64,000 bases of DNA from Albidovulum aestuarii (GTDB lineage: Bacteria; Pseudomonadota; Alphaproteobacteria; Rhodobacterales; Rhodobacteraceae), in contig NZ_JASBQQ010000002.1 in NCBI RefSeq assembly GCF_029961185.1, forward strand, positions 372,001 to 436,000, given 5' to 3'. This document shows positions 1 through 33,861 of this stretch, one piece after another. Made by a program: the position numbers and the translations under genes. Numbering within the stretch: the stretch's first letter is position 1; each line of letters opens with the position of its first letter. Below the pieces are notes generated by a model that saw only the letters and a list, made by a program, of their open reading frames with translations, searched no databases and had not been told where the DNA came from.

Positions 1-2
1 TT

Positions 3-1868: not shown

Positions 1869-2875
1869 TGTTCCGCTATCTCCTCTCGCGCCTCCTGACG
1901 TTTCTGCCGACTTTCTTCGGCGTGACGATCATTTCCTTTGCCTTCATCCGCATGCTGCCCGGCGATCCGATCATCGTCATGGCGGGCGAACGCGGGGTAA
2001 GTGAAGAGCGCTATGCCGAACTCATCCAGCAGTTCGGTTTCGATCAGCCGATCTGGCGACAATACCTCGACTATCTCGGCGGTGTCGTGCAGGGCGATCT
2101 GGGGCAGAGCTTTGTCACCAAGAAACCGGTCTGGGACGAGTTTTTCGCGCTTTTCCCGGCGACACTGGAACTCTCGATCTGCGCGATGATCTTCGCCGTA
2201 GCCCTCGGCCTGCCCGCAGGCGTCATTGCCGCCGTGAACCGGGGCAAGCTCTTCGACCGGACGCTGATGTCGACCGCCCTTGTTGGCTATTCAATGCCGA
2301 TCTTCTGGTGGGCGCTCCTGCTGATCATCGTCTTTTCCGGCATGCTCGGGATCACGCCCGTTTCGGGCCGGATCAGCTTGCTCTACTACTTCGACAATCC
2401 GTCCGGCTTCATGCTCTGGGATGCGCTCGTGTCAGACCAGAAGGGGGCGTTCTGGTCCGCACTTCATCACCTGATCCTGCCGACGATCGTTCTGGGCACC
2501 ATTCCGCTGGCCGTCATCGCCCGCCAGACCCGGTCAGCGATGCTGGAGGTGCTGAGCGAAGACTATATCCGGACCGCGCGTGCCAAGGGCCTCGCGCCCG
2601 GCCGCGTCAACGGTGTCCACGCGCTTCGTAACGCCCTGATCCCGGTTATCACGGTGATCGGCCTCAGTGTCGGCACCCTTCTAGCCGGCGCGATCCTGAC
2701 CGAAACCATTTTCTCATGGCCTGGCATCGGCAAGTGGATGGTCGATAGTATCTTCCGCCGCGACTACCCGGTCGTGCAGGGCGGCCTCTTGTTGATCGCC
2801 GTCATGGTGATGATCGTGAACCTGACCGTGGACGTGCTCTACGGCCTCATCAATCCCAAGATCAGGAAACGCTGA
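1868..2875 (+). CDS. ABC transporter permease, DppB type
   Basis: A 335-residue inner-membrane protein with the opening helix 'LLSRLLTFLPTFFGVTIISF' and the family segment 'MLPGDPI' typical of DppB/OppB. The EAA loop for ATPase contact is seen around 'YIRTARAKGLAPGRVNGVHALRNALIPV'-like sequence near residues 230-260. Six or so transmembrane segments are apparent. It overlaps the hydrolase stop and its own stop overlaps the next start, so it is translationally coupled on both sides. It forms the channel with the 2875-3777 permease. Confidence 0.93.
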   Translation: MFRYLLSRLLTFLPTFFGVTIISFAFIRMLPGDPIIVMAGERGVSEERYAELIQQFGFDQPIWRQYLDYLGGVVQGDLGQSFVTKKPVWDEFFALFPATLELSICAMIFAVALGLPAGVIAAVNRGKLFDRTLMSTALVGYSMPIFWWALLLIIVFSGMLGITPVSGRISLLYYFDNPSGFMLWDALVSDQKGAFWSALHHLILPTIVLGTIPLAVIARQTRSAMLEVLSEDYIRTARAKGLAPGRVNGVHALRNALIPVITVIGLSVGTLLAGAILTETIFSWPGIGKWMVDSIFRRDYPVVQGGLLLIAVMVMIVNLTVDVLYGLINPKIRKR

Positions 2876-3777
2876 TGGCTCTGACGCCCGTAACCTCCGG
2901 GACCTTGCGGAACCGCCCCGGCCGCCTGCAGGAATTCTGGTACTATTTCCGTGAAAACCGTGGCGCCGTCATCGGACTCTGGGTTTTCGCGGCCTTCATC
3001 GTCGTGGCCCTCTTCGCGCCGATCCTCGCCCCGCACGACCCAACCCAGCAATTCCGCGATGCGCTGCTGCAACCGCCCTTCTGGGAAGAAGGCGGCAGCC
3101 TGACCTATCCCTTGGGCACCGACGCGGTCGGTCGCGACATGCTCTCGCGGCTTCTGCACGGCGCGCGCTATTCCTTCTATGTCGGCATCATCGTCGTGAC
3201 CTTCGCGGCCTCCGGCGGGATCGTCATCGGCCTTCTGGCGGGCTTTGCCCCGAAATGGGTAGATACGATCATCATGCGAGTGATGGACATCATCCTCGCC
3301 TTTCCCTCTCTGCTGCTCGCTCTCGTTCTCGTCGCGATCCTAGGGCCATCACTCACGAATGCCATGATCGCGATCGCTATCGTGCTGCAGCCACATTACG
3401 TCCGGCTCACGCGCGCGAGCGTGCTGTCAGAGAGGTCGAAAGATTACGTGACGGCGGCCCGTGTCGCCGGCGCAAAACAGACGCGACTGATGTTCATCAC
3501 CGTGCTGCCGAACTGCCTATCACCGATCATCGTGCAGGGGGCGCTCTCGTTCTCGACCGCGATCCTTGATGCCGCCGCCCTTGGCTTTCTCGGCATGGGC
3601 GCGCAACCCCCCACCCCCGAATGGGGCACGATGCTGGCCGAGGCTCGCGAATTCATCCTGCGCGCCTGGTGGGTCGTGACCTTCCCCGGCGTTGCGATCC
3701 TGATCACCGTCCTTGCCATCAACCTGATGGGCGACGGGCTGCGCGACGCGCTCGACCCGAAACTGAAGCGGAGCTGA
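2875..3777 (+). CDS. ABC transporter permease, DppC type
   Basis: A 300-residue permease with a cytoplasmic N-tail and first helix ('[25 protein letters not shown]'), the DppC/OppC signature '[21 protein letters not shown]', and an EAA-type loop near '[18 protein letters not shown]'. Five further helices follow. It starts on the last base of the preceding stop codon and is followed after four bases by the ATPase gene. It pairs with the DppB-type subunit in the inner membrane. Confidence 0.93.
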
Positions 3778-3781
3778 GCCG

Positions 3782-4759
3782 ATGCCCCTTCTCGATATCC
3801 GAAACCTCTCGGTCGATTTCGCCACCGCCTCGGGCCAGTTCCGCGCCGTCGATGGCGTCGATGTAAACGTCGATACCGGCGATATCCTTGCGATCGTCGG
3901 CGAATCCGGCTCCGGCAAGTCGGTTTCCATGCTTGCCATGATGGGGCTCCTGCCCTGGACCGCGACGATCACCGCCGATGTGATGAGCTTTGGCGGTCAG
4001 GACCTGCGGGGCCTGACGCCCCGCCAGCGCCGCAAGATCATCGGCAAGGATATGGCGATGATCTTTCAGGAACCGATGTCGTCCCTGAACCCTTGCTTCA
4101 CCGCCGGGTTCCAGATCAAGGAGGCTTTACGACTGCATCTCGGCCTCGACGCGAAAGAGCGTCACGCCAAGGCCATCGAACTGTTCGAGATGGTCGGCAT
4201 CCCCGCGCCCGAGGATCGGCTCAAGGCCTTCCCGCACCAGCTGTCGGGCGGCATGAACCAGCGGGTGATGATCGCGATGGCCATCGCCTGCAGCCCGAAG
4301 CTGCTGATCGCCGACGAACCGACAACCGCGCTCGATGTGACCATTCAGGCGCAGATCCTCGACCTTCTGACCGGGCTTCAGCGCGAAACCGGAATGGCGC
4401 TGATCCTGATCACCCATGACATGGGCGTCGTGGCCGAAACCGCCGAGCGGGTGCAGGTGCAATATGCGGGCCAGAAGGTGGAGGAACAGCCCGTGGGCGA
4501 TCTCTTCGAGACGCCTCATCACCCCTATACGGCGGCCCTGCTGGCGGCGCTCCCTGAGCGCGCCACATCGCGCAAACTGCCGACCATCCCCGGCGTCGTG
4601 CCCGGCCAGTTCGACCGGCCGATGGGTTGCCTTTTCTCGCCCCGCTGCCAGTTCGCGGATGACAGATGCCGCAACACGCCGCCCGCGCCCTGCGGCCCGG
4701 AACTCGGCCTCGCCCGCTGCCACTATCCCCTGAACGCCAAAGCGGAGGCAACGGCATGA
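3782..4759 (+). CDS. ABC transporter ATP-binding protein, DppD type
   Basis: A 325-residue ATPase with Walker A GESGSGKS, signature LSGGMNQR, Walker [13 protein letters not shown] and the switch His in 'LITHDMGVV'. The C-terminus carries the oligopeptide-transporter extension with clustered cysteines ('[14 protein letters not shown]'), known in some homologues to bind an Fe-S cluster. Its stop overlaps the following start by four bases (ATGA). It drives import together with the DppF-type partner. Confidence 0.94.
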
Positions 4760-5712
4760 GCACCCCGGTCGTCATCGCCGAAAACCTCACCCGCCACTAC
4801 GACGTCAAGGGCGGCCTGTTCTCCAAGGGCGGCACAGTGCGCGCCGTCTCTGAAACGAGCTTCAAGCTTGAACCCGGAAAGACCCTCGCCGTCGTCGGCG
4901 AGTCGGGCTGCGGCAAGTCCACCCTCGCCCGCCTGATCACGATGATCGAGGAACCGACCTCAGGCACCTTCTCCATCGGCGGTCAGAACGTGACGCCGGA
5001 GACCTGGGCCTCGCATCGCGCCGATGTGCAGATCGTGTTTCAGGACCCCTATGGATCACTGAACCCGCGCCAGCGGATCGGTTCGATCCTTGAGGAACCG
5101 CTGAAGATCAACCGCCCCGACATGCCCGCCGCCGACCGCGAGGCCAAGGCGCGCGACATGCTGAAGCTCGTGGGCCTGCGCCCGGAGCATTTCGACCGTT
5201 ACCCTCACATGTTCTCGGGCGGCCAGCGCCAGCGCATCGCGGTGGCCCGCGCGCTGATGCTGGAACCGAAGGTGCTGGTGCTGGATGAACCCGTCTCGGC
5301 CCTCGATCTGTCGATCCAGAGCCAGATCCTGAACCTTCTCGTGGACCTGCAGGAACGGCTCGGCCTTGCTTACTTGTTCATCAGCCATGACCTCTCCGTT
5401 GTGAAACACATGGCCGACGACATCATCGTCATGTATCTCGGCCGCCCGGTCGAGGTCGGGCCTAAGGCAGAGATCTTCGCAAAACCGCGTCACCCCTATA
5501 CCAAGGCGCTCCTCTCGGCGACGCCAATGGCCGACCCCAAGGCGAAGAAGACGCGGATCAAGCTGGAAGGCGAACTGCCCTCGCCCCTGAACGTGCCCGC
5601 AGGCTGCGCCTTCGCGCCGCGCTGCTGGAAGGTGAAGGACAAGTGCCGCGCCGAACGTCCGGTGCTTGGGGATGAGGTGCATCCCGCCGCCTGCTTCTTC
5701 CCCGAAGCCTGA
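4756..5712 (+). CDS. ABC transporter ATP-binding protein, DppF type
   Basis: A 318-residue ATPase with Walker [10 protein letters not shown], signature FSGGQRQR, Walker [13 protein letters not shown] and 'FISHDLSVV'. I chose the ATG at 4756, which overlaps the DppD-type stop in ATGA; an in-frame ATG 90 bases upstream would add an Arg/Pro-rich tail lying wholly inside the previous gene. The C-terminal cysteine-bearing oligopeptide domain is present ('[14 protein letters not shown]'). It is the last gene of the transporter operon. A 100-bp gap holding an operator-like motif and a hairpin separates it from the amidohydrolase. Confidence 0.93.
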
Positions 5713-5774: not shown

Positions 5775-5813
5775 TGGGACCATCTCCGCCATAACGTCAA
5801 GGAGATGGTCCCA
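5775..5813 (+). promoter_or_regulatory. Hairpin occluding the ribosome-binding site of the amidohydrolase
   Basis: Thirteen-base perfect arms (5775-5787 and 5801-5813) are separated by 13 bases. The right arm contains GGAGA, the only good Shine-Dalgarno for the ATG at 5813, and its last base is the A of that start codon. In RNA, the folded form would block initiation, which suggests translational control or a termination decoy. It could also be a DNA-level operator. Confidence 0.6.
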
Positions 5814-7009
5814 TGGCTGATCCCGCCCCCGCCGCCACCAGCAAGACGAAACTTGTCATCCGCAATATCGGCCAGATCCTCTCGGGCAAGATCGAGGAAC
5901 CGCTGATCGACGGCGATTGCGTGGTCTGCGACGGCGACCGGATCACGGCGGTGGGCTACGAGAAGGACCTCGACACCGACCGGGCGACGACCGTGGTTGA
6001 TGCCAAGGGCGTGACCCTCTGCCCCGGCCTTATTGACAGCCATGTGCATCCCGTGATCGGTGACTACACGCCCCGCCAGCAACAGCTGAACTGGATCGAT
6101 TCCTGCCTCCATGGCGGCGTCACCACGATGATCTCGGCGGGTGAGGTACACGCACCGGGCCGTCCTAAGGACATCGTCGGGCTGAAGGCCATGGCGATCG
6201 CCTCGCAGCGCTGGTACGAAAACTTCCGCCCCTCGGGCGTCAAGGTCCATTCCGGTGCGCCCGTGCTCGAAGAGGGCATGGTCGAGAGCGACTTCAAAGA
6301 CTTGGCCGATGCGGGCGTGAAACTGCTGGGTGAGGTCGGGCTCGGTTCCGTCAAGGCCGGCGAGACGGCGGCCCAGATGGTCAAATGGGCCCGCAAATAC
6401 GGCATCCAGTCGACCATCCATACCGGCGGCCCCTCGATCCCCGGCTCCGGCCTCATCGACAAGGATGTGGTGCTGGAGGCGGATGCCGACATTATCGGCC
6501 ATATCAACGGCGGTCACACAGCCCTTCCCGACGACCAGATCACCTGCCTTTGCGAAAGCTGCCTGAGGGGTATCGAAATCGTCCATAACGGCAACGAACG
6601 CGCGGGCCTCCTCGCCATGCGCACCGCCTTTGAACTTGGCCAGCCCGAGCGCATCATCCTCGGCACCGACGCGCCTGCTGGCTCCGGCGTGCAGCCACTC
6701 GGCATCCTGCGCATGATCGCCATGCTCTCCAGCCTCGGTGACATCCCGCCCGAGATTGCCTTCTGCTTTGCCACCGGCAACACGGCAAGGATGCGCGACC
6801 TCGATTGCGGCATCATCGAACCGGGCAAAGCGGCGGATTTTGTCCTTATCGACATGGCCCAGCACGCGCCCGGCGGCTCGATGCTGGCCTCCATCCATCA
6901 GGGCAACCTGCCAGGTGTTGGCATGACCGTGATCGACGGAATTGTCCGCACCACCCGCAGCCGCAACACGCCCCCCGCCACGCGGCTACCGGAAATTGTC
7001 GAGACTTGA
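5813..7009 (+). CDS. Enamidase-like amidohydrolase
   Basis: A 398-residue member of the metal-dependent amidohydrolase superfamily. Visible ligand-type residues: His77 and His79 (DSHVHP), Glu174 (LGEVGLG), His203 (TIHTGG), His230 (IGHINGG) and Asp286 (GTDAP). The overall pattern, including 'HGGVTTMISAGE', 'PGRPKDIVGLKA' and the ending 'SRNTPPA', closely follows what I recall of enamidase from Eubacterium barkeri, which hydrolyses 1,4,5,6-tetrahydro-6-oxonicotinate to 2-formylglutarate and ammonia. No signal peptide, so cytosolic. It converges on a 6-hydroxynicotinate reductase-like gene, whose product would be its substrate. It is separate from the transporter operon by a hairpin-bearing gap. 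The family match is strong; the exact substrate is inferred. Confidence 0.8.
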   Translation: MADPAPAATSKTKLVIRNIGQILSGKIEEPLIDGDCVVCDGDRITAVGYEKDLDTDRATTVVDAKGVTLCPGLIDSHVHPVIGDYTPRQQQLNWIDSCLHGGVTTMISAGEVHAPGRPKDIVGLKAMAIASQRWYENFRPSGVKVHSGAPVLEEGMVESDFKDLADAGVKLLGEVGLGSVKAGETAAQMVKWARKYGIQSTIHTGGPSIPGSGLIDKDVVLEADADIIGHINGGHTALPDDQITCLCESCLRGIEIVHNGNERAGLLAMRTAFELGQPERIILGTDAPAGSGVQPLGILRMIAMLSSLGDIPPEIAFCFATGNTARMRDLDCGIIEPGKAADFVLIDMAQHAPGGSMLASIHQGNLPGVGMTVIDGIVRTTRSRNTPPATRLPEIVET

Positions 7010-7053
7010 TGTCACTTTCTGTCGGAAAAAAACTCCCGCCGGAGGCAAACCGG

Positions 7054-7108
7054 AGCATGCGGGCCCTGCCCGCATGCTACAGATAACTTGCGCCCGGGAA
7101 CCGGGCGC
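7054..7108. terminator. Two hairpins between convergent genes
   Basis: Two strong palindromes fill the 114-bp gap between convergent genes: arms 7054-7064/7068-7078 (11 bp, 3-base loop) and 7090-7097/7101-7108 (8 bp, 3-base loop). Neither has a clear T run. They probably end or protect the two opposing transcripts. Confidence 0.5.
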
Positions 7109-7123
7109 TCAATTTGAATACAC

Positions 7124-8569
7124 CTACCGGTCTCTCCTGACGGTCACACGCCGCTCGATCTCTCCGGCAATCTCCTCGACCCGGCGCACCTGATCCATAT
7201 GGCCGCCGAGGGCGGCATAGTCCGACAGCCGCATGGTGAACTCGATGGGCGCCACCAACGCGGGCGTTGGCACATAGCCAAAGGCGTTCGACGGCATCTC
7301 GGTCACGTCCGCCATGAAGGTGATGCCGCCGCCGGGCCAGACATAACACTCCGCCCCGCCGCAGGTCACATTCGTCACCGCCTCGCGAACGGATCGCGTC
7401 AGCCGGACCGGATTTTCCGTCACACCGGCCCGCAGGGACCCGCCGGCCCCGCCCATGAAGACGACCGAGGTCATCGACGGCTCGCAGTTCTCGGCGATCC
7501 TCTCAACCGATTGCCTGAGACTCTCCGGAAGCTCGGTCGGCACCGGCCGCAGATCGGCGTCGAGCACATAATACCCAAACTGCTCGCCTGTAGTGGAAAC
7601 CATCAGCAGCGTCAGGCCTGGCCGTGCGGGCGCTCGCCAGGGCCCAAGGATCGTCAGCGGGTCCGATATATTCGTGCCGCCCCAGCCGGTTCCTGGCTCG
7701 GCCACGCGGAAATAGCGGCCCGGCGTCGATTTGTGGCCGAGGATCTTGATCCCCGTCGGCTCAACCCCCAGGACCTTACCCGCCTGATGTTCGGAAAGGA
7801 CGCCGGTGATGTGATCGTCCACCACCACAACCTCATCGACCAGCCCATGCCATTGCTTGGCGAACATGCCGATTGTCGCGGACCCGCAGCCGACCCGCAT
7901 CAGATGCTCTTCCTCGCCATTCACAATGGGCGGCCTGCCCGCCTGCAACACAACGTCGGCCCCGCCGTCGATACTCATCTCCACCGCTTCGCGATTGCAC
8001 AGGCGCAGAAGCGCATCGCAGGTCACCCGGCCCTCCTTCTTGCCACCACCCGTCAGGTGATGCACGCCGCCGAGCGATAGCATCTGCGAACCGTATTCGG
8101 CCGTCATCACATGGCCGATGGGCTCGCCATCGACCCTCACCGGCGCCGCCTCAGGCCCCAGATAGCGGTCGGTGTCGATTTTCACCTTGGCCCCGCAATA
8201 GGAAAATATCCCTTCGGTCACGATGGTGACCATGTCCACACCGTCATGATCCTGCGCCACGATGAAGGGGGCGGGCTTGTAGTCGGGATAGGTCGTGCCC
8301 GCGCCGATGGCGGTTATGAAGGGCCGGTCGGTCCTGAGCAGGTCACCGTCCCACTCGCCCGCCTCAAGTTCCAGGAAGGGCACGACCTGGCCATCACCCT
8401 CCTTGGCCGCTTCCAGCACCGTGAACGGGTCGAGCCGCACCAGTTCACCGCCCTCATTGGCATAGCGGTCGCAGGCCCCGGCGCGGCCCTCGGCGATATA
8501 ACACATGACCGGACAGGCATCGCATCTGATCTTGTCTTTCATACGGGATTCAACGGCTTGCCTGACCAT
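7124..8569 (-). CDS. 6-hydroxynicotinate reductase-like Fe-S protein
   Basis: A 481-residue protein. Near the N-terminus it has a four-cysteine cluster site C16-x2-C19-x3-C23-x9-C33. The rest is a large domain with many glycine-rich motifs ('GGVHHLTGGGKKEG', 'MGGAGGSLRAGV'). I recognise the family as 6-hydroxynicotinate reductase of E. barkeri, a ferredoxin-dependent Fe-S flavoprotein that reduces 6-hydroxynicotinate to tetrahydro-6-oxonicotinate. The start at 8569 has a good GGAGGG site and lies one base after the hydroxylase stop. It is the last gene of the five-gene minus operon and converges with the enamidase-like gene. The combination with a molybdenum hydroxylase and enamidase strongly supports a reductive N-heterocycle route; the actual ring compound is not proven. 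Confidence 0.75.
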   Translation of the reverse strand: MVRQAVESRMKDKIRCDACPVMCYIAEGRAGACDRYANEGGELVRLDPFTVLEAAKEGDGQVVPFLELEAGEWDGDLLRTDRPFITAIGAGTTYPDYKPAPFIVAQDHDGVDMVTIVTEGIFSYCGAKVKIDTDRYLGPEAAPVRVDGEPIGHVMTAEYGSQMLSLGGVHHLTGGGKKEGRVTCDALLRLCNREAVEMSIDGGADVVLQAGRPPIVNGEEEHLMRVGCGSATIGMFAKQWHGLVDEVVVVDDHITGVLSEHQAGKVLGVEPTGIKILGHKSTPGRYFRVAEPGTGWGGTNISDPLTILGPWRAPARPGLTLLMVSTTGEQFGYYVLDADLRPVPTELPESLRQSVERIAENCEPSMTSVVFMGGAGGSLRAGVTENPVRLTRSVREAVTNVTCGGAECYVWPGGGITFMADVTEMPSNAFGYVPTPALVAPIEFTMRLSDYAALGGHMDQVRRVEEIAGEIERRVTVRRDR

Positions 8570-8570
8570 G

Positions 8571-11270
8571 CTAACCCTCCCTAGCCGTCCGGATCGCCGC
8601 CAGAACCCGGTCCGGTGTCGCAGGCAGCCGCTTCACGCGTGCACCGCAGGCATGGCGTATCGCCGAGAGAATCGCGGGTGCGGTCGGGATCAGCACATGT
8701 TCGCCCAGCCCCTTGGCACCATAAGGCCCGTTCGGGTCAGCCACCTCGACGATATGCGAGGTGATCGGCGGCACGTCCCCGATCGTCGGGATCAGGTAGT
8801 CGTGCAGATTATCGGTGCGGCCGGGGATATACTCCTCCATCAGCGCGAGCCCGATCCCCTGTGCAACACCGCCATGGATCTGCCCCTCGACCAGAACCGG
8901 GTTGATCGCGCGGCCCACATCATGGGCGGCGTGGATGTGATCCAGCTTGACGGTGCCAAGCGCAGTATCCACGGTCAGCTCCACCATCTGCGCGGTATAA
9001 CCGTAAACGGCATAGGGCACACCCTGCCCGTTCTCGTCCAGAGGCGAGGTCGGCGGGTCATAGGTCTCTGCCGCCTCAATCACATAGCCATCGCCCTTGG
9101 GCAGCACGGCACGATGCAGGGTGCCGTCCGGCGCCGTCACAGTTACTTCACCCCGCGCGACGGCGATCCGGCCCTCGGCGGCATTGGTCAACCTCAGAAT
9201 ATCCGCACGCAACCCCAGCCCTGTCAGCCGGGCCGCATTGCCCGAGACATAGGTCTGGCGCGAGGCAGAGGTCTTGCCGGCATCGGGTGTGACGCCCGTA
9301 TCCGGGCCGACAAGCTCCACAGCGCGGATGTCCACGCCCAAAGCCTCGGCGAAAATCTGGGCGATGACCGTGTTGGCCCCCTGGCCAATATCCATCGCGC
9401 CCTGATGCAAGACGATCCGCCCGTCGCCTGTGATCCCGGCGCGGATTGTCGAGGGGTTCGGCAGCGAGGTGTTTCCACAGCCATACCAGCCGCAGGCGAT
9501 GCCGACACCTTTGCGAAAAAAACCCATCTTCTTATTGAATTCTTTCGCTTTTTCTAATGCTACACCCCATGCAGGGCGCAGCGCATCCAGACAGGGTTTG
9601 ATCCCCACCGCCCCGTCGAAGACCTGCCCCGTCGCGGTCGGAATGCCATTGTCGAGCGCGTTCAGATGCCGGAACTCCAGCCGGTCTATCCCGAGCTTTT
9701 CAGCCAGATCGTCGAACAGGAACTCCTGTGCGATGGCGGCCTGCGGTACGCCGAAACCACGGAAGGCACCCGCAGGCACGCAGTTGGTATAGACGCCTTC
9801 CGTATGCGCGACATAATCCGCATGGGCGTAAGGCCCACCCGCATGGACCGGCACCCGGTTGGCTACGGTCGGCCCCCAGGAGGAATGCGCGCCGGTGTTG
9901 AAGGTGCCGTCGAAGGCAAAGCCCGACAGCCTGCCATCCGTCGTCGCCCCAACCCGCACCCGCATCAGCGCCGGATGCCGCTTCGTCGTGGAAGCCATTG
10001 ATTCCGCGCGTGAATAGGTCATCCGCACGGGACGTTTCAGATGGAACGCAGCCAGCGCCACATGCGGGTGGAATGAGATGTCGAGCTTCGACCCGAAACC
10101 GCCGCCAACCGCCGTCGGAACTACCCGCACCGCCTCGGGAGAAAGCCCCAGAATCTCCGCCACCGAATCCCGTGCCATGACCGGGGCCTGCGTGCCGCCG
10201 TGAACCTCGATCCGATCCTCAACCCAATCGGCATAACCCGCCTCGGGTTCGATATAGGCGTGTTCGATGAACCGGGTCTCGAACTCCCCCTCCGCCACGA
10301 TATCAGCCCTTGCGAGCGCCGCCTCGGCATCGCCCTTCTTCACGAAGCCCCGGCACATGACATTCGCGGCATGACCTTCGTGGAACGGTTCGAGCGCCTT
10401 CGCGTCAGCGGGTTCTCTTGCCGCGTTGACCGGGCTCCAACTGATTGGAAAAGAAGCAAAATCCAGCCCAGTCATGATCCTGGCCGAACCAACCACCGCC
10501 GCAACGGCCTCGCCCCGGAACCGGGGAATCTCTTCGGCATAGACCGGCTGGTCGATGAAACCGGGAATGGTGCCGAAGAGGTTCCGCCCCGGCACATCAC
10601 GGGCGGTCAGGATCAGGTCCAACCCATGGGTCCGACGCCATGTTTCAAGGTCTCCGAAGGTGAAGCGGGCATGGTCATGCGGTGAACGTATTACCTTTAA
10701 AACCAATGCGTTATCCGGCGCGACATCGTCGCTGAAAGCCTCTCGCCCCTCGACCTTTCGGGCGCCGTCCAGACGCACGATTCCAGCGCCGACGCCGGTC
10801 CGGTCCTCGGCGGGTGAGGCCACCCCCATCACCGCGTCGATGATCTTGCGGTAACCGGTGCAGCGGCAGAGGACACCGCCCAAAGCATCCTCGACCTCGC
10901 GTTCGGAGGGTGTGGGATTGACGCGCAGAAGGGCTGTCGCGGCGACCATCATACCCGGTGTGCAGATGCCGCATTGCGCCGCACCATGGTTCAGGAATGC
11001 TTCCGAAAGATCTGAAAACAAACGATCATTGTCACGCAAACCTGCGAGTGTTTCGACCGCGCGTCCCGCCGCCGCTGCGACCTGAGTGATGCAGGAACAG
11101 ACCGGCGCGCCATCCACCAGAACAGTGCAGGCGCCACAATCCCCGGCATCGCAGCCGACCTTCACATCAAGGCAGCCGAGGTCGTACCGCAGGACCGAAG
11201 AAAGCCGCTCCAGACCCCGTGCTTCATATCGAACATCCCGCCCGTTCAGGGTGAACCTCAGCTCTGTCAT
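8571..11270 (-). CDS. Molybdenum hydroxylase, [2Fe-2S] domain fused to molybdopterin subunit
   Basis: An 899-residue fusion of the small and large subunits of the xanthine dehydrogenase family. Residues 1-160 carry the plant-type cluster C40-x4-C45-x2-C48-x11-C60 and the second cluster site 'QCGICTPG...CRCTGY'. From about 180 onward comes the molybdopterin subunit with 'AFRGFG' and the catalytic glutamate in 'AKGLGEHVL'. The start at 11270 overlaps the FAD-subunit stop in ATGA; an upstream in-frame ATG lies inside that gene. It should hydroxylate an N-heterocycle next to the ring nitrogen with water as oxygen source and pass electrons through Fe-S and FAD. In this operon nicotinate or a relative is the likely substrate (inference). 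Cytosolic. Confidence 0.85.
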   Translation of the reverse strand: MTELRFTLNGRDVRYEARGLERLSSVLRYDLGCLDVKVGCDAGDCGACTVLVDGAPVCSCITQVAAAAGRAVETLAGLRDNDRLFSDLSEAFLNHGAAQCGICTPGMMVAATALLRVNPTPSEREVEDALGGVLCRCTGYRKIIDAVMGVASPAEDRTGVGAGIVRLDGARKVEGREAFSDDVAPDNALVLKVIRSPHDHARFTFGDLETWRRTHGLDLILTARDVPGRNLFGTIPGFIDQPVYAEEIPRFRGEAVAAVVGSARIMTGLDFASFPISWSPVNAAREPADAKALEPFHEGHAANVMCRGFVKKGDAEAALARADIVAEGEFETRFIEHAYIEPEAGYADWVEDRIEVHGGTQAPVMARDSVAEILGLSPEAVRVVPTAVGGGFGSKLDISFHPHVALAAFHLKRPVRMTYSRAESMASTTKRHPALMRVRVGATTDGRLSGFAFDGTFNTGAHSSWGPTVANRVPVHAGGPYAHADYVAHTEGVYTNCVPAGAFRGFGVPQAAIAQEFLFDDLAEKLGIDRLEFRHLNALDNGIPTATGQVFDGAVGIKPCLDALRPAWGVALEKAKEFNKKMGFFRKGVGIACGWYGCGNTSLPNPSTIRAGITGDGRIVLHQGAMDIGQGANTVIAQIFAEALGVDIRAVELVGPDTGVTPDAGKTSASRQTYVSGNAARLTGLGLRADILRLTNAAEGRIAVARGEVTVTAPDGTLHRAVLPKGDGYVIEAAETYDPPTSPLDENGQGVPYAVYGYTAQMVELTVDTALGTVKLDHIHAAHDVGRAINPVLVEGQIHGGVAQGIGLALMEEYIPGRTDNLHDYLIPTIGDVPPITSHIVEVADPNGPYGAKGLGEHVLIPTAPAILSAIRHACGARVKRLPATPDRVLAAIRTAREG

Positions 11271-12109
11271 GGCCGCCCCCCAGCCGTCCGGCATGCGTCC
11301 AGCAGGCGTATGGCAAGCGTATGGCATGCGTCCCGACGATAGTCTGCCCCCGCCCGCACGTCGTCGATAGGGGAAAGCCCCGCAAAATGATCGCGTCGCA
11401 CCGCCCCGGCCATCTCATCCGGACCAAGACCGATCAGATCGCGTTCGAGCGCCGTCAGCCGCATCGGCACCGGTGAGGCCGCCCCGGCGGCCAGCCGCGC
11501 CTCGGCCACGCGATCGCCGTCCAATCGGACAAGTCCGGCGAGCGAGACGATGGAGATGACGAGATAGGCGCGGCTGCCCAGCTTCTCAAACCCCGTCCGG
11601 ACGTCGCCCGCGACATCCGGCAACAGCAGTGCAGTCACCACCTCGCCTGCCCTCAGATCCGTCTTTCGAACCCCGGTCACGAAATCGGCCAGCGCCACTT
11701 CGCGCCGCCCGGTGGCGGAGGCAAGCTCCACCGCGGCGTCGAGGGTCAGGAGGGTCGGCACCCCATCCGCCGCAGGCGAGGCGTTGCAGATATTGCCCGC
11801 GAGTGTCGCGGTGTTCTGGATCTGGACCGAGCCCACCTGCCGCCCGGCAATCTTCAGCCCGTCGAAAATCGGGGGCAGATCAGCGCGGATCACCTCGGCC
11901 CATGTCACTCCCGCCCCGATCCGCCATCGCCCATTGTCACGGGCAATGCCCTTCAACCCGGAAATCGCGGTCACGTCCAGCACCCGTCCCGGCGCGGGCC
12001 GGTCGCCAAGCGCCGGGAATACATCCGTTCCGCCCGCCAGCACGACCGCAGGCGCCTCTGCCAGAAAGCCCAGCGCGTCCTCCAGCCGTTCGGGGCGGTA
12101 GACCACCAT
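11267..12109 (-). CDS. Molybdenum hydroxylase FAD-binding subunit
   Basis: A 280-residue CoxM/XdhB-type FAD subunit. It shows the FAD motifs 'VLAGGTDV' near the N-terminus and 'QIQNTATLAGNICNASPAADG' near residue 100, typical of the PCMH-like fold. I chose ATG 12109, two bases after the preceding stop; a longer version would overlap that gene. The stop overlaps the fused hydroxylase gene. It transfers electrons from the [2Fe-2S] domains to an acceptor such as NAD. Confidence 0.88.
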   Translation of the reverse strand: MVVYRPERLEDALGFLAEAPAVVLAGGTDVFPALGDRPAPGRVLDVTAISGLKGIARDNGRWRIGAGVTWAEVIRADLPPIFDGLKIAGRQVGSVQIQNTATLAGNICNASPAADGVPTLLTLDAAVELASATGRREVALADFVTGVRKTDLRAGEVVTALLLPDVAGDVRTGFEKLGSRAYLVISIVSLAGLVRLDGDRVAEARLAAGAASPVPMRLTALERDLIGLGPDEMAGAVRRDHFAGLSPIDDVRAGADYRRDACHTLAIRLLDACRTAGGRP

Positions 12110-12110
12110 C

Positions 12111-12698
12111 TCAGCGCAGCCCGTCCTTGCCCTCGGCCTCTTCATGCGTCAGCCCGCCCACGCGCGGCAGGGGCCGCCCGCTGTCGGTCACGGCAACGGC
12201 CACGAGGATTTCGTTGGCGCGGGGGGCGTCGTTCACCCTGACTTCCATCCCGTCAAAATGCGACCGCACATAGGCGGCGTCCTTGTGGCCCAGAGGCACG
12301 TCCAGAGGATGGCCCATCGGCCCTTGCTTCTTGTTCGAGGGCACCAGCGCCGCCCCCTTCTCCACCGCCTTGCGCAAAGGCGCACCAAGGCGGGGATGCA
12401 GGATCGCGGCGGCATGTTCCAACTCACCATTCTCGCCCACCAAAGCCGCCTTGCCATAGCTCTGCGCCTGATCAGGCGTGATGCCGAGCGCCTTGACGCA
12501 GGCCTCGCCCAATGTGCCGCCCAACTCCTCGCCGATCTGCATCAGCGCCTCCAGATCGGGTTCATAGCGGCCCGCGAAGGGGTTCTCGATCACCGCGATG
12601 GCGGCGGCGCGGCGGGTGGGCGGGGAAATCGCCTGCCCCATCTCGGTCCTCACCTCCTCGACCACGGTCACGATCTTGCGGATCTTCGCCTGTGTCAT
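12111..12698 (-). CDS. PF06684 'amino acid synthesis' family protein, function unknown
   Basis: A 195-residue soluble protein recognised as the family named 'amino acid synthesis' (PF06684); that name rests on little evidence. Conserved-looking segments are 'IAVIENPFAGRYEPDLEALM', 'GKAALVG..GELEHAAAILHP.LG', 'VPSNKKQG' and 'VPLGHKDAAYVRSHFDG'. It overlaps the UPF0280 gene by four bases upstream and sits one base from the FAD subunit start, so it is expressed with a heterocycle-degrading enzyme set. It may process an intermediate after or beside the enamidase, or assist maturation. No catalytic assignment is possible from sequence. Confidence 0.75.
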   Translation of the reverse strand: MTQAKIRKIVTVVEEVRTEMGQAISPPTRRAAAIAVIENPFAGRYEPDLEALMQIGEELGGTLGEACVKALGITPDQAQSYGKAALVGENGELEHAAAILHPRLGAPLRKAVEKGAALVPSNKKQGPMGHPLDVPLGHKDAAYVRSHFDGMEVRVNDAPRANEILVAVAVTDSGRPLPRVGGLTHEEAEGKDGLR

Positions 12699-13618
12699 CG
12701 CTTTTCCTCCCTTATGGCCGGAAGGTCCGCGCCAAGTGACCGGACCTCATCCTGAAGCGACAGGAAAATGGCGCGGGCCAAGCCGCGCCCGATCAGTTCT
12801 GCCGCATATTTTTCGCCCGCGTCGAGCGCCCTGGCCCGTTCGCCCGGGGTCAGCGGACCGACATCCACCGTGACCGGCCGGGTCCCCAGATCGCTGTCCG
12901 GCGCGAGGTCGCGCGCAGGGCGGCGGATGATGCCGGAATGGCCCGGCAGATCGACCGCATTGGCGATCATGGTGGCGGCGGCATCGGCCCCGGCCGCCGT
13001 CCGGGCCAGCACGGTCACCGCGTCGGCGATGCCGAGCGAATGGCTGCGCCCGCGCCAACCCGATGTCGCGATGCCGCCGATCCCGTCCCCGGCACCGATG
13101 CCGATCAGCGCAAGGGGCGCCGTGCCGGGGCGACCATCGGCGATGCCGACCCGGTAGCGTGCGGTGCCTTTCAGCCAAAGTGCGACATCACCACCATTAT
13201 TCACCGCCGCACTGTCGAGCCCACTTTCTGCGGTGACGGCGGCAAGGATATGATCGGCCACCGCCCCCGCGACAGCGGCCATCGGCGTGATGAAGTCCGG
13301 CCGGAACGGGGCGACCGCCGAGGCCATAGCGCGAGCGACCTGGCCCTGTGGCAAGGCCCCCTGCCCGACGGGTGTACGCAGGACCGGCAGTTCGGCGACA
13401 AGCTGTTCGAGAAGCCCCTCAAAGGCCATAACCGCCCGTGCCTCGGCGGCACGAACCGCATCCTCAGGCCCCTTTAAATCGAGGATGATGTCGATCGGTC
13501 CCTGCACGAGCCGCAAGCGCCCGCCTTTTGCGGCACGCCCGATCCACGGCAGGTGCCCGCCAACCGCATTGTCCCGGGCGGGCGTATCAGCTTGGACGGA
13601 CATGGCTGGGGCAGGCAT
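12695..13618 (-). CDS. UPF0280 family protein (ApbE-like superfamily)
   Basis: A 307-residue protein of the UPF0280 family, placed in the same superfamily as ApbE flavin transferases. Visible: 'FITPMAAVAGAVADHIL', 'VNNGGDVALWL' (compare the ApbE N.GGD motif) and 'GIGGIATSGWRGRSHSLGIADAVTVLA', which combines the ATSG, His and Asp positions used by ApbE for FAD and metal binding. First gene of the minus operon, with a GAGG site seven bases before ATG 13618. As I recall, 6-hydroxynicotinate reductase carries covalently bound flavin; a flavin transferase encoded with it would make sense (inference). Other roles are possible. Confidence 0.72.
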   Translation of the reverse strand: MPAPAMSVQADTPARDNAVGGHLPWIGRAAKGGRLRLVQGPIDIILDLKGPEDAVRAAEARAVMAFEGLLEQLVAELPVLRTPVGQGALPQGQVARAMASAVAPFRPDFITPMAAVAGAVADHILAAVTAESGLDSAAVNNGGDVALWLKGTARYRVGIADGRPGTAPLALIGIGAGDGIGGIATSGWRGRSHSLGIADAVTVLARTAAGADAAATMIANAVDLPGHSGIIRRPARDLAPDSDLGTRPVTVDVGPLTPGERARALDAGEKYAAELIGRGLARAIFLSLQDEVRSLGADLPAIREEKR

Positions 13619-13710: not shown

Positions 13711-13817
13711 CGACGGTGCGGTTTGCACACTTCCAGATTGACTTGTCTTTATCGGACGAAGCCTTACAGTCACAAGTGAACCTCACGTCACCCACGATCA
13801 GCCGGAATTGGACCAAC

Positions 13818-14234
13818 GTGACGGAAAAGCCGGGATATCGCCTCGAAGACCAGGTTGGTTTCAAGCTGCGGCTGGCCAATCAGCGTCATCTGGAGATCTT
13901 CGCGTCGGAGATGCCCGACCTGACCCCGCGCCAGTTCGCGGTACTGGCGAAGCTGAGGGATGAGGGCACGACGTCGCAAAATCAGTTGGGCCGGCTTGTG
14001 GCGATGGATGCTGCCACAACGAAGGGCGTTGTGGAGCGGCTGAGCCGGAAGGGGATGATCGCGACAGCGCCCTCGCCCACCGACCGGCGGCGGATCGAGA
14101 TTTCGCTGACCGATGAGGGTCGCGCCGTTCTCGAACATCTCGTCCCGATCGCGGCGCAGATTTCGGAACGGACATTGCGCAACCTCACCCCACGCGAACG
14201 CGCGCGGCTTCTTGACCTGCTCGACAAGCTCTGA
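13818..14234 (+). CDS. MarR family transcriptional regulator
   Basis: A 138-residue winged helix-turn-helix regulator from the GTG at 13818. The core reads 'LTPRQFAVLAKLRDEG', recognition region 'QNQLGRLVAMDAATTKGVVERL', then the wing 'DRRRIEISLTDEG', the classic DxRxxxxxLT signature. The frame stays open far upstream, and GTG 13776 would add 14 residues; I favour 13818 because family members are 135-150 residues long. It is transcribed away from the UPF0280/heterocycle operon, as expected for a local repressor responding to an aromatic ligand. It converges on tRNA-Leu. Confidence 0.85.
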   Translation: MTEKPGYRLEDQVGFKLRLANQRHLEIFASEMPDLTPRQFAVLAKLRDEGTTSQNQLGRLVAMDAATTKGVVERLSRKGMIATAPSPTDRRRIEISLTDEGRAVLEHLVPIAAQISERTLRNLTPRERARLLDLLDKL

Positions 14235-14497: not shown

Positions 14498-16135
14498 TCA
14501 GGAGGCCTTTTCCGCCCGTTCCTTCAGCAGCTTGGTCAGCCAGTCCGGGTCCATCTCGGGCACCGAGGACAGGAGAAGCTCGGTATAGGGATCGTGCGGC
14601 GGCTGGAACATCTCGTCCTTTGGGCCCTGTTCGACCACCCTGCCCCGTTGCATCACGACGACCTCGTCTGCGATGGCGCGAACCGTCGCGAGATCATGAG
14701 TGATGAACATATAGGCCAGGTCGAACTCGGTCTGGAGCCGGTCAAGTAGCTTCAGGATGCCTTCGGCCACCAGCTGATCCAAGGCCGATGTCACCTCGTC
14801 GCAGATGATGAACTGAGGTTCGGCCGCGAGCGCCCTTGCGATGCCGACCCGTTGCTTCTGCCCGCCCGACAACTCTGACGGCAGGCGGTCGATGAACTTG
14901 TCGGGTTCCAGTTCAATGAGATTCAGCAAATCGCGGATGCGTTCGGTCAACGCCTTGCCCTGAAGCCCGAGATACATCTGCGCGGGGCGGCCGATCAGTT
15001 CGCGCAGGCGCAGCTTGGGGTTCAGCGCGGTATCGGCCATCTGATAGATCATCTGCGCCTGACGGAGCTGTTCGCGTGTCCGTTGCCGATAGTCGGCGGG
15101 CAGCGCCTGACCGTTGAACAGGACCTGACCCTGTCGTGGCGGCAGAAGCCCGGTGATCACCCGCGCCGCTGTCGATTTGCCCGACCCGCTTTCACCGACC
15201 ACGGCGACCGTGCGGCGCTTGTGGATGTCGAAATTGATGTTCTTCAGGATGTCGACCTGGCCGTAACCCGCCGTAACCCCCTTGACCGAAACGACCGGAA
15301 CCGTGCCCTTTTCCACCGGCGGCTGGGTGGCGCGGGCATGGCTGCGCACGGCCCAGAGGGTCTTGGTATAGGCCTCTTTCGGGCTGGCGAGCATCGTGCG
15401 GGTGTCGGCTTCCTCCACCTCGTCGCCACGGAGAAGCACTTTGATCTTGTCGGCCATCTGCGCCACGACCGCGAGGTCATGGGTGATGTAGATCGCCGCC
15501 GTGTCAAACTGCGCCACGATATCGCGGATCGCCGAGAGGACCTCGATCTGTGTGGTCACGTCGAGCGCGGTCGTCGGTTCGTCGAAGATGATCAGGTCGG
15601 GGCGGCAGGCCATCGCCATCGCCGTCATCGCCCGCTGTAACTGGCCGCCCGACACCTGATGCGGATAGCGAAAGCCGATCTCGTCCGGATCGGGCAGTTG
15701 CATACGGCGGTAAAGCTCCACCGCGTCGTGCTCCGCCTCGCCGCGCCCCATCACGCCATGCTGGACCGGCGCTTCGCTGTACTGGTCGATCAGCTTGTGG
15801 GCCGGGTTGAAGCTCGCGGCCGCCGATTGCGCGACATAGGCGATGCGCTTGCCCCTGAGGCCCCGTTTCGTGGCCTCGGACGCTTTCATCAGGTCGATGC
15901 CGTCGAAGTCGATCGTGCCGCCGGAAATGCGGCACCCGTCGCGGGTGAACCCCATCGCGGCGAGGCCGAGCGTCGACTTGCCCGCGCCGCTTTCGCCGAT
16001 CAGGCCCAGCACCTCACCCTTGTTCAGCGTCAGGTCCACGCCCTTGATGATCGGCGACCAGGTTTCGTCGGAACGACCCTCGATCTGGATGTTGCGCATC
16101 GTCAGGAGGACGGGCTTTTCCTTCATGTCTTTCAT
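14498..16135 (-). CDS. ABC transporter ATP-binding protein with two nucleotide-binding domains
   Basis: A 545-residue protein in which DppD- and DppF-like ATPases are fused. Domain 1: Walker A GESGAGKS, signature VSGGQLQR, Walker [13 protein letters not shown]. Domain 2 (from about 285): Walker A GESGSGKS, signature LSGGQKQR, Walker B FIICDEVTSALD. In the second Walker B the usual Pro is Val. The linker near 270-285 lacks the cysteine-rich oligopeptide tail seen in the 3782-4759 protein. It is the last gene of the operon, four bases after the permease. It powers import for the 18137-19705 binding protein. Confidence 0.92.
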   Translation of the reverse strand: MKDMKEKPVLLTMRNIQIEGRSDETWSPIIKGVDLTLNKGEVLGLIGESGAGKSTLGLAAMGFTRDGCRISGGTIDFDGIDLMKASEATKRGLRGKRIAYVAQSAAASFNPAHKLIDQYSEAPVQHGVMGRGEAEHDAVELYRRMQLPDPDEIGFRYPHQVSGGQLQRAMTAMAMACRPDLIIFDEPTTALDVTTQIEVLSAIRDIVAQFDTAAIYITHDLAVVAQMADKIKVLLRGDEVEEADTRTMLASPKEAYTKTLWAVRSHARATQPPVEKGTVPVVSVKGVTAGYGQVDILKNINFDIHKRRTVAVVGESGSGKSTAARVITGLLPPRQGQVLFNGQALPADYRQRTREQLRQAQMIYQMADTALNPKLRLRELIGRPAQMYLGLQGKALTERIRDLLNLIELEPDKFIDRLPSELSGGQKQRVGIARALAAEPQFIICDEVTSALDQLVAEGILKLLDRLQTEFDLAYMFITHDLATVRAIADEVVVMQRGRVVEQGPKDEMFQPPHDPYTELLLSSVPEMDPDWLTKLLKERAEKAS

Positions 16136-16139
16136 CGCC

Positions 16140-17063
16140 TTACTCCTTCAATCCGCTGGCGCGGTGCAGCATCCAGTCCACCACGAAGTTGACCGCCACT
16201 GTCAGAAGCGCGATGGCACCGGCGGGCAAGAGCGGCGTGACATCGCCGAAGGTGATCAGCGCCGCGTTTTCACGCACCATGGAGCCCCAGTCGGCGGTCG
16301 GCGGCTGAATGCCGACGCCGAGGAACGAGAGCGCCGAAATGGCGAGGAAGACGAAGCAGAAGCGCAGCCCGAACTCTGCGACCAACGGCGCCATGGCGTT
16401 CGGCAGGATCTCGCGCGTGATCAGCCGCCAGAGTCCCTCCCCCCTGAGCTTCGCCGCCTCGATATAGTCCATCACCACGATGTTCTGCGCGACAGACCGC
16501 GCCAGCCGGAAGACCCGGGTGGAGTCGATGACGGCGATGACGAGGATCAGGGTGATGACCGAGGTGCCGAAGATCGTCAGAAGCAGGAGCGAGAAGATCA
16601 GCGACGGAATTGCCATCAGAATATCGACGACCCTGCTGAGAATCTGGTCCAGCCAGCCGCCGACCGTGGCCGCCAGAAGCCCGAGGATCGAGCCGATGAA
16701 AAAGGCGAGCGCCGTCGTCATGAAGGCGATCCCGACCGTGTTCCGCGCCCCGTAGACGAGGCGGGTGAACATGTCGCGGCCAAGGTTGTCGGTGCCGAAG
16801 ATATGCGGCGCCTCCCATGGCAGGAACTGGCCGCCGACGACCTCACGCTCGGCAAAGGGCGCGATCACCGGGGCGAAGACCGCCACGAGGATGTAAAGCA
16901 GGATGATGAACATCCCGAAAGCGGCGGTCAGCGGCGCGGTGCGCATGGCTTTGCGCAGGTTGCCGCGCGACAATGCGATGACCGCCGTGCGGAAGACCCA
17001 GCCCAAGGCCAGCGCCCCGGCGACAACGACAGCGATCCAGAAAAGGGTGATCAGAAGAGACAT
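16140..17063 (-). CDS. ABC transporter permease, DppC type
   Basis: A 307-residue inner-membrane permease with the signature 'FGTDNLGRDMFTRLVYGARN' and an EAA-type loop near 'DYIEAAKLRGEGLWRLITREILPNA'. An extra N-terminal helix ('LITLFWIAVVVAGALALGWVF') precedes the usual first helix, making the N-terminus longer than in the 2875-3777 homologue. It starts 11 bases after the DppB-type gene stop. Confidence 0.9.
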   Translation of the reverse strand: MSLLITLFWIAVVVAGALALGWVFRTAVIALSRGNLRKAMRTAPLTAAFGMFIILLYILVAVFAPVIAPFAEREVVGGQFLPWEAPHIFGTDNLGRDMFTRLVYGARNTVGIAFMTTALAFFIGSILGLLAATVGGWLDQILSRVVDILMAIPSLIFSLLLLTIFGTSVITLILVIAVIDSTRVFRLARSVAQNIVVMDYIEAAKLRGEGLWRLITREILPNAMAPLVAEFGLRFCFVFLAISALSFLGVGIQPPTADWGSMVRENAALITFGDVTPLLPAGAIALLTVAVNFVVDWMLHRASGLKE

Positions 17064-17074
17064 CTTAGCACCCC

Positions 17075-18031
17075 TTACTTGCGATGGATCAGACGCGGGT
17101 TCGACAGGGTCGACAACACGTCAGCGGTGAGATTGAGAAGCACATAGGCCGCGGCAAAGATCAGCGCGACCGCCTGCACGACCGGGAAGTCGCGTTTGGC
17201 CACGCTGTCCACCATGAGCTGGCCGAGGCCGGGATAGACGAAGACCACCTCGACCACCACGACGCCGGTGATGAGATAAGCAAGGTTCAGCGCGATGACG
17301 GTGATGATCGGCGCCAGCGCATTCGGCAGCGCGTGTTTCAGGATCACCCGCATCGGGTTGATGCCCTTGAGCCGCGCCATCTCGATATAGGGCGAGGCCA
17401 GAAGGTTGATGATCGCCGCACGGGTCATCCGCATCATATGGGCCGTGACGACCAAGGTCAGCGTCAGTGCAGGCAGGAAGGCACGATAGAGGCCCTCTCC
17501 GAGGGTGGTATCGGCATCCATCCGCGTCATCGACGGGAATAGACCAGACTGAGCAAGGACGAAGATCAGGATATAGGCGACGAAAAATTCCGGAAATGAG
17601 ATCGAGGTCAGCGCGGCCGCATTGGCGGCGCGGTCGAAGATCGAGTTCCGGTAGAGTGCCGCGAGAATGCCAAGCACCAGCGACAGCGGCACCGCGATTG
17701 CGGCTGCATAGAGGGCGAGGAAGAGCGTATTGCCAAGCCGTGTGGCGATCAGGTCCGCAACCGGCCGCTTGTTGCCCGAAAGCGATGTACCAAAATCGCC
17801 CTGAATGGCGCCCCCAAGCCAGTTGAAGTAACGCTGATAGGCTGGCAGATCGAGCCCGATTTCCTTGCGAAACGCGGCCAGCGTTTCCTCGGTCGCTGAC
17901 TGACCGAGAATGGCCTTGGCGAAGTCCCCCGGCAAAAGCTCGGTCGCGCTGAAGATGATAACCGAAATCACGAACAAGGTAAGCAGCCCCAAGCCGAGGC
18001 GCTTGGCGATCATCGTCCAAATCAGGCCCAT
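17075..18031 (-). CDS. ABC transporter permease, DppB type
   Basis: A 318-residue permease with an N-terminal helix, the family 'LLPGDFAKAILGQ' segment and an EAA-type loop near 'PYIEMARLKGINPMRVILKHALPNA'. It follows the binding-protein gene after a 105-base gap that contains a GC-rich hairpin and precedes the DppC-type gene. It forms the channel with that subunit. Confidence 0.9.
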   Translation of the reverse strand: MGLIWTMIAKRLGLGLLTLFVISVIIFSATELLPGDFAKAILGQSATEETLAAFRKEIGLDLPAYQRYFNWLGGAIQGDFGTSLSGNKRPVADLIATRLGNTLFLALYAAAIAVPLSLVLGILAALYRNSIFDRAANAAALTSISFPEFFVAYILIFVLAQSGLFPSMTRMDADTTLGEGLYRAFLPALTLTLVVTAHMMRMTRAAIINLLASPYIEMARLKGINPMRVILKHALPNALAPIITVIALNLAYLITGVVVVEVVFVYPGLGQLMVDSVAKRDFPVVQAVALIFAAAYVLLNLTADVLSTLSNPRLIHRK

Positions 18032-18103
18032 CCCGGTTCTCTCCTGTTGTTTTTTTGTCCGGTCACTTCACGAAAACCGGTTGGTCCCTTCGGGGACGAA
18101 TAA

Positions 18104-18127
18104 GCCCCGGCACTTGCGCGCCGGGGC
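18104..18127 (-). promoter_or_regulatory. Hairpin after the Tat-type binding-protein gene
   Basis: Eight-base arms GCCCCGGC (18104-18111) and GCCGGGGC (18120-18127) flank an 8-base loop just after the binding-protein stop. It parallels the hairpin at 720-744 and probably sets a higher mRNA level for the binding protein than for the permeases. Confidence 0.55.
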
Positions 18128-18136
18128 CTTGTCAGA

Positions 18137-19705: not shown

Positions 19706-19766
19706 GTTGTCCTCCTTGTCGAGTCTTTGTCGTTTTTCTTGATTACGGCCCCCCGGACGCTCCGGG

Positions 19767-20876: not shown

Positions 20877-21031
20877 TCCGCGATGGTCTCCCCCCAAAGG
20901 AACGACCGCGAGACTGAGCGTTGAGTCACGCAGCCAGACCAACGTATTGTCTGACATTAATCGCCCTCACATGAAATACGACGCTTCGCGACGAAAATAC
21001 GACACGTTTGCGGTTTTTATTGATTGAGCCG

Positions 21032-33859: not shown

Positions 33860-33861
33860 GT

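Follow-up and report, generated by a model that had tools for sequence, protein, structure and literature searches.

What does an aerobic-looking bacterium do with a molybdenum hydroxylase, a protein akin to 6-hydroxynicotinate reductase (Hnr) and an enamidase-like hydrolase encoded side by side? This arrangement occurs in a stretch of 64,000 nucleotides from Albidovulum aestuarii (Rhodobacteraceae; contig NZ_JASBQQ010000002.1, positions 372,001 to 436,000), hereafter the window. A first-pass annotation made from the sequence proposed that the three activities belong together in the reductive breakdown of an N-heterocycle, as in Eubacterium barkeri. We found the reductive route through 6-hydroxynicotinate to be the best fit, given the relatedness of the enamidase to that of E. 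barkeri and its confinement to genomes encoding Hnr. We consider the locus to be a gene set for the reductive catabolism of nicotinate, with a probability of about 0.8.

Organisation of the locus

The genes concerned are the following:

5813-7009, plus strand: enamidase-like amidohydrolase, 398 amino acids (phmmer and alignment to 2VUN)
7124-8569, minus strand: Hnr, 6-hydroxynicotinate reductase-like, 481 amino acids (annotation of its relatives and identity to them)
8571-11327, minus strand: hydroxylase, fused [2Fe-2S] and molybdopterin (FeS+Mo) subunit (Pfam Fer2_2, Ald_Xan_dh_C, MoCoBD_1, MoCoBD_2)
11267-12145, minus strand: hydroxylase, flavin adenine dinucleotide (FAD) subunit (Pfam FAD_binding_5, CO_deh_flav_C)
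12111-12698, minus strand: PF06684 (AA_synth, DUF1185) protein (Pfam, 245.5 bits; 2QTP, 325 bits)
12695-13618, minus strand: UPF0280/COG2122 protein with an ApbE-like fold (NCBIfam NF003322, 338.1 bits for a cut-off of 290)
13812-14234, plus strand: MarR-family regulator (Pfam MarR), divergent from the hydroxylase-reductase operon

The adjacency described in the first-pass annotation holds, and all the hydroxylase, reductase and enamidase genes are open (5813-12145). The hydroxylase is encoded by two genes spanning 8571-12145, whose starts are likely to be at around 11270 (fused subunit, from its translation) and 12109 (FAD subunit). The five minus-strand genes, in the order UPF0280, PF06684, FAD subunit, fused subunit and Hnr, overlap or touch (gaps of -4, -35, -61 and +1 bases). 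The enamidase gene lies on the opposite strand, 100 bases past dppF, and converges on Hnr. The MarR protein is probably a repressor of this main operon.

The enamidase and the reductase

The E. barkeri enamidase (2VUN) matched the window protein over residues 12-395 (phmmer, 370.5 bits, E = 9.5e-110) and was the sole distinct PDB sequence to do so at E ≤ 1e-5. The two proteins are 46% identical in the alignment. Residues H66, H68, E163, H192, H219 and D275 (2VUN sequence numbering) are invariant in eight out of eight enamidase rows, a pattern that we take to be that of the ligands of a binuclear metal centre (HxH, Glu, His, His, Asp). The protein is thus predicted to be an enamidase that opens the ring of 1,4,5,6-tetrahydro-6-oxonicotinate (THON). 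PMC9304392 describes a bifunctional enamidase and a shared upper pathway. The enamidase genes of three other genomes (G059, G079, G250) have an in-frame stop, caused by decay or by sequencing error.

Hnr matched no family of Pfam or NCBIfam, and its assignment comes from its relatives. We found these in 26 of 72,556 plasmid records (60-80% identity), 17 of which are annotated as 6-hydroxynicotinate reductase. The protein is also 42-45% identical to eight rows from Bacillota, sulfate reducers and other delta-type bacteria, mostly anaerobic, all from loci with an enamidase; an identity of 42% is reported between the Hnr of Bradyrhizobiaceae SG-6C and that of E. barkeri in PMC3511419. The first-pass annotation had raised the concern that the reductase and the hydrolase might best match families with other proven substrates. 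No such match was found for Hnr, and the E. barkeri enzyme is the only PDB match of the enamidase at the above threshold.

Six cysteines of Hnr (16, 19, 23, 33, 228 and 362) are invariant in 61 out of 61 rows and may be ligands of Fe-S clusters. The E. barkeri reductase is said to carry one [2Fe-2S] and two [4Fe-4S] clusters, for which six invariant cysteines look few. The AlphaFold2 model of Hnr, made with 61 sequences, has a mean predicted local distance difference test score (pLDDT) of 85.5 and a predicted template-modelling score of 0.83, with lower confidence near residues 54-89 and at the C-terminal end. Foldseek found nothing in the PDB matching it at E ≤ 0.001 (best E 0.023, probability 0.04), which suggests that the fold of Hnr has no solved structure yet. 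Two other genomes have damaged copies of the gene, with several stops (G014) or in two pieces (G310), again from decay or sequencing error.

Co-occurrence of enamidase, Hnr and partner genes

We identified Hnr in 103 of the 295 genomes of the family and in 33 of the 398 genomes of a sample of the phylum, one of the 33 being a marginal match (E = 2e-4). Orthologues of the enamidase (71-100% identity) were present in 43 family genomes, all of them among the 103 with Hnr, and in none of the 192 without it (Fisher, 1.9e-23). Since all 43 orthologues are in genomes with Hnr, the association is not due to chance. Three enamidase-like matches at 42-46% identity were left out of this count, one in a genome with Hnr (G109) and two in genomes without (G048, G235). 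UPF0280 was found in 101 family genomes, of which 100 encode Hnr; it was missing from three genomes with Hnr (G008, G132, G245), and its sole match in a genome without Hnr (G155) sits at a contig end.

To describe the neighbourhoods we used 60 Hnr loci of 15-20 kb, hand-picked from family and phylum genomes, and seven of the 26 plasmid matches. Components were called at identities of at least 50% (window-type molybdenum subunit), 45% (NicB-type hydroxylase), 60% (enamidase) and 55% (HyuA), and at 60% for DppB and 50% for the M24 peptidase. UPF0280 was encoded in all 60 loci and PF06684 in 57, and a protein at least 40% identical to a Sulfitobacter MarR query in 48. The hydroxylase was of the window type in 46 loci and of the NicB type in nine, never both, and five loci had neither. 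The absence of loci with both types fits alternatives for a single step. Among ring-opening hydrolases, we found the enamidase in 22 loci, HyuA in 14, and both in none. NicB-type loci encoded an enamidase (five), Hyu (two) or neither (two). Window-type loci had an enamidase nearby (14) or elsewhere in the genome (seven), Hyu (11), or neither found (14), and loci lacking either hydroxylase had an enamidase nearby (three), elsewhere (one), or Hyu (one). As enamidase and Hyu each occur with either type of hydroxylase, the hydroxylase and the ring-opening hydrolase look interchangeable around one core.

In one cluster, HyuA has its best match in the alpha subunit of caprolactamase (482.5 bits, short of the model cut-off of 1000), a likeness that would fit an ATP-driven opening of the lactam. 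The HyuA label requires six changes on a tree of Hnr with 117 rows. One plasmid locus (L061) speaks against a strict swap of enamidase and Hyu: it has an enamidase and, farther away, HyuA and HyuB at 42% and 36% identity, below our thresholds. Several loci (L060, L062, L064, L065, L068, L116 and others) encode HyuA/HyuB by the Hnr-UPF0280-PF06684 core with no enamidase in reach.

We also scanned named genomes with an enamidase profile and analysed the best 80 of at least 291 loci, of which 51 encoded Hnr and 58 PF06684. Among the 47 of these best 80 that cover at least 20 kb, 31 had Hnr, 37 PF06684 and 32 UPF0280. Five loci (L137, L141, L143, L148, L159) have PF06684 and an enamidase homologue with no Hnr within reach; the homologues of L137, L141 and L159 are just 41-45% identical to the window's enamidase and may be paralogues. 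Nine loci of Bacillota or delta-type bacteria (L127-L134, L136) encode Hnr, enamidase and PF06684 together, with UPF0280 detectable in six. In Defluviimonas salinarum (L171) the gene order is that of the window, including the Dpp transporter and the M24 peptidase.

The hydroxylase and the specificity of the set

Among single PDB chains, an aldehyde oxidoreductase matches the fused FeS+Mo subunit best (363.6 bits); three chains of the E. barkeri nicotinate dehydrogenase (3hrd) match three stretches of it (238, 207 and 111 bits). The FAD subunit scores 99.5 bits with xanthine dehydrogenase versus 90.2 bits with nicotinate dehydrogenase (3hrd_C). Judging from these matches, the hydroxylase is an enzyme of the xanthine dehydrogenase family, and its substrate is left unpinned by them.

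The specificity of Hnr and enamidase might have shifted in the clade of the window, in which case the set would serve to degrade another N-heterocycle carboxylate, either 6-oxo or hydroxylated. The type of hydroxylase, which differs both from NicB and from the split enzyme of E. barkeri, speaks for such a shift. So does the 117-row tree, made by a quick method and with some long branches, where the window's Hnr forms a well-separated clade with D. salinarum and one genome from the window's genus (support of 100, three rows). Yet the branch length is unremarkable, each hydroxylase type pairs with each hydrolase, and the window's proteins are 71-74% (Hnr) and 71-73% (enamidase) identical to their counterparts in named Bradyrhizobium, at ten loci that encode both. 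We regard a change of substrate as unlikely.

UPF0280 and PF06684

The model of UPF0280 (mean pLDDT 91.4) matched 2o34 in Foldseek searches (E = 2e-9). Matches to entries of ApbE flavin transferases had probabilities of 0.99-1.0 and E values of 7e-5 to 1e-3, with TM-scores (template-modelling scores) of just 0.3-0.5, and hhalign aligned UPF0280 with ApbE over 94 columns (probability 92.4, E = 5e-7). ApbE flavin transferases have a catalytic His and recognise an acceptor motif, Dxx(S/T/C)(G/A)A(T/S), in their target. The conserved motifs of UPF0280 are NNGGD, ATSG and ADAAAT; there is no His among its columns with one residue in at least 52 of 58 rows, and the acceptor motif occurs in none of the 61 Hnr rows. 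We thus rejected the idea that UPF0280 simply transfers flavin to Hnr in the manner of ApbE, even if the fold fits. UPF0280 is most likely a maturation factor of Hnr. The Hnr of E. barkeri reportedly carries a covalently bound flavin, and for this reason we keep flavin transfer as an option. Searches of the open-licence literature found no paper matching all the terms used for this flavin, and none under the name UPF0280. The UPF0280/COG2122 family is given a role in homocysteine synthesis with DUF39 in PMC5764234.

In a tree of PF06684 with 186 rows, the protein of the window falls in the larger of two clades, alongside those from the Bacillota and delta-type loci, and many other clusters encode a second, separate type. 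PF06684 is not strictly tied to the enamidase, since it is also present in HyuAB loci lacking one. Its homologue TgnF is said to act in trigonelline breakdown, a link to which a citation in PMC7913881 points. TgnF stimulates succinate-semialdehyde oxidation in Acinetobacter, whereas no such effect was seen for another homologue, HcdD, according to that article (PMC7913881). The family was also suggested to be concerned with branched-chain amino acids, citing the transporter neighbours of SPO0826 (PMC2954203). We set this function aside: here, transporter neighbours of the SPO0826 type accompany Hnr clusters, and the nicotinate context may explain them. We propose that the PF06684 protein is a helper acting at the ring-opened product.

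The near-constant company that UPF0280 and PF06684 keep with Hnr is a direct way into the role of both families there. Tentatively, and with considerable reservations, we suggest a reusable core for reductive pyridine degradation, made up of Hnr, UPF0280 and PF06684, around which hydroxylases (window-type or NicB-type) and hydrolases (enamidase or caprolactamase-like, ATP-dependent HyuAB) can be swapped. UPF0280 would be the dedicated maturation factor of Hnr and PF06684 a helper on the released enamine or formyl acid. If true, this would assign a function to both families.

The transporter and the M24 peptidase

Upstream of the enamidase, the window encodes a peptide-type ATP-binding cassette (ABC) transporter and a peptidase:

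1-707, plus strand: DppA-type solute-binding protein, C-terminal part (whole gene of 530 amino acids at L126:9115-10707, starting left of the window; L126 is a stretch of the same genome extending left of the window start)
768-1868, plus strand: M24 Xaa-Pro-type peptidase (Pfam M24; best PDB match 4rgz, 158 bits)
1868-5712, plus strand: dppBCDF, dipeptide-type ABC transporter (Pfam/NCBIfam)

The first-pass annotation took this transporter as a hint of a different substrate. One could accordingly imagine that the enzymes are the same and that the entry compound is an amide or other conjugate of nicotinate, nicotinuric acid for example, that Dpp imports and M24 cleaves before hydroxylation. Two observations favour a conjugate: the genes dppA-M24-dppBCDF-enamidase are close-packed on one strand (gaps of 60, -1, -1, 4, -94 and 100 bases), and one genome (G010) keeps the M24-dppBCDF-enamidase unit intact even with Hnr around 590 kb away. 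The peptidase has the metal-ligand residues of M24 on inspection of the alignment, but its PDB matches are Xaa-Pro peptidases. Within the genus (22 genomes), the enamidase was found in 20 genomes, Hnr in 21, and M24 in only nine. Among the 14 genus genomes with a window-type enamidase (at least 92% identity; partial in G681), M24 is present in eight and missing from six, and no Dpp set was found in the stretches fetched around the enamidase of these six.

In four of the six genomes (L239-L242), the genes immediately upstream of the enamidase encode a TRAP transporter, presumably of the TAXI type, a histidine kinase with a Cache domain and a regulator of the NtrC type. Their counterparts in the window's genome, at 73-93% identity, occupy L126:1566-8255, immediately to the left of the Dpp block. 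In the other two, the gene upstream of the enamidase encodes FAD_binding_3 (L244) or a LysR protein (L243, a short contig). Branched-chain-type ABC genes are present in 41 of the 60 Hnr loci of other genomes; the DppB and M24 of the window are in none of the 60, and a single locus (L110) has a distant Dpp set (34-46% identity). For the branched-chain-type permease of these clusters, nothing close turned up in the genome of the window (29-43% identity for the four best matches). The transporter is the variable part of the locus, because sister genomes lack Dpp-M24 and have other genes upstream of the enamidase. It is thus a weak sign of a different substrate. We set aside a peptide-derived heterocycle as the main substrate, and consider entry through a conjugate very unlikely.

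The predicted pathway and its weight

For nicotinate itself, the pathway would start with its conversion to 6-hydroxynicotinate by the molybdenum hydroxylase. By homology, Hnr would then reduce 6-hydroxynicotinate to THON, which the enamidase, with its conserved metal ligands, is predicted to open to 2-formylglutarate and ammonia. The PF06684 protein might aid the ring-opened product, by enamine/aldehyde tautomerisation, deamination or decarboxylation, and carbon might flow onward via glutarate and glutaryl-CoA. In Azorhizobium caulinodans, THON is reported to reach intermediates of the tricarboxylic acid cycle via glutarate (PMC3511419). The absence of the later E. barkeri genes is therefore expected: we found no hydroxymethylglutarate dehydrogenase, methyleneglutarate mutase or later gene among the proteins given to Pfam between some 10 kb left of the window and position 37 kb, a set that covers some of the reading frames. 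The first-pass annotation had concluded that either the substrate or the lower pathway differs from the known one. This dilemma loses its force, as the lower pathway may differ in the manner of A. caulinodans, and the genome has a candidate glutaryl-CoA dehydrogenase. The candidate (L220) scores 610 bits with the Burkholderia enzyme (3gnc) and 565 bits with the human one, and seems to fit the glutarate route without being specific to it. A second protein, L219, was rejected because it resembles isovaleryl-CoA dehydrogenase.

Several observations weigh against the nicotinate assignment. Among the family genomes with Hnr, 60 of 103 lack an enamidase orthologue, so that Hnr alone does not imply the exact pathway. 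Conversely, Hnr was out of reach in 16 of the 47 longer enamidase loci among the best 80. Nor does the hydroxylase single out nicotinate, judging by the higher scores of aldehyde oxidoreductase and, by a small margin, of xanthine dehydrogenase. The transporter nearest to the gene set is of peptide type. Finally, the top PDB match of L220 is 4w9u (713 bits), named only acyl-CoA dehydrogenase, and glutaryl-CoA dehydrogenase also serves the breakdown of lysine and tryptophan.

Neighbouring genes

Beyond a tRNA-Leu gene, the region 14498-23045 is probably a separate catabolic operon. Its genes specify another peptide-type ABC transporter, an enzyme of the mandelate racemase family, a racemase of the Asp/Glu/hydantoin type and a protein resembling histidinol dehydrogenase. 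Farther on (24249-28644, 28734-29747, 30507-33859 and 35796-37232) are a DmsC/Fer4/molybdopterin oxidoreductase set, a phosphate acetyltransferase, a thiamine pyrophosphate enzyme, a GntR-aminotransferase regulator and a class III aminotransferase. The genes across 24249-37232 resemble a set for taurine or sulfonate breakdown.

Comparison with known systems

The nicotinate fermentation genes of E. barkeri were reportedly described by Alhapel in 2006. The window resembles this system in its enamidase, in the family of its hydroxylase and in having a putative Hnr homologue. It differs in that its FeS and Mo parts are fused, whereas they are split in E. barkeri, and in that neither hydroxymethylglutarate dehydrogenase nor methyleneglutarate mutase was seen near its genes. 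The trigonelline pathway of Acinetobacter baylyi shares with the window a PF06684 protein (TgnF) and a pyridine-carboxylate route ending in a semialdehyde. In that pathway, attributed to Perchat (2018), an oxygenase is said to open the ring, with no Hnr and no enamidase. Among the papers listed in literature searches on homarine and on trigonelline, no title or abstract opening ties the present cluster to either compound, and the open-licence literature gave no paper joining three or more of the terms nicotinate, hydantoinase, ring reduction, 6-hydroxynicotin and Rhodobacteraceae.

The first-pass annotation saw novelty in the occurrence of the pathway in an aerobic-looking bacterium, yet a nicotinate cluster is already published for A. 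caulinodans, Bradyrhizobium japonicum, Rhodopseudomonas palustris HaA2 and Bradyrhizobiaceae SG-6C (PMC3511419). According to that article, SG-6C grows on nicotinate with transient 6-hydroxynicotinate, and the genes are linked to this growth by homology, not by mutants. The window has an FAD subunit and a fused FeS-Mo hydroxylase, whereas the Bradyrhizobium-type loci with a hydroxylase in reach have the NicB type (L160, L086, L088, L105 and others); it has a Dpp-type transporter next door, whereas theirs is of the branched-chain type. Two loose ends are the fold of Hnr, whose model has no PDB match in Foldseek, and the apparent swap of enamidase and HyuAB-type hydrolases. The pathway itself is already known and the window is an ordinary member. 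With Hnr in more than a third of the family genomes sampled, the reductive route for vitamin B3 (nicotinate) is common in this family, and it is one that some aerobic bacteria share with anaerobes.

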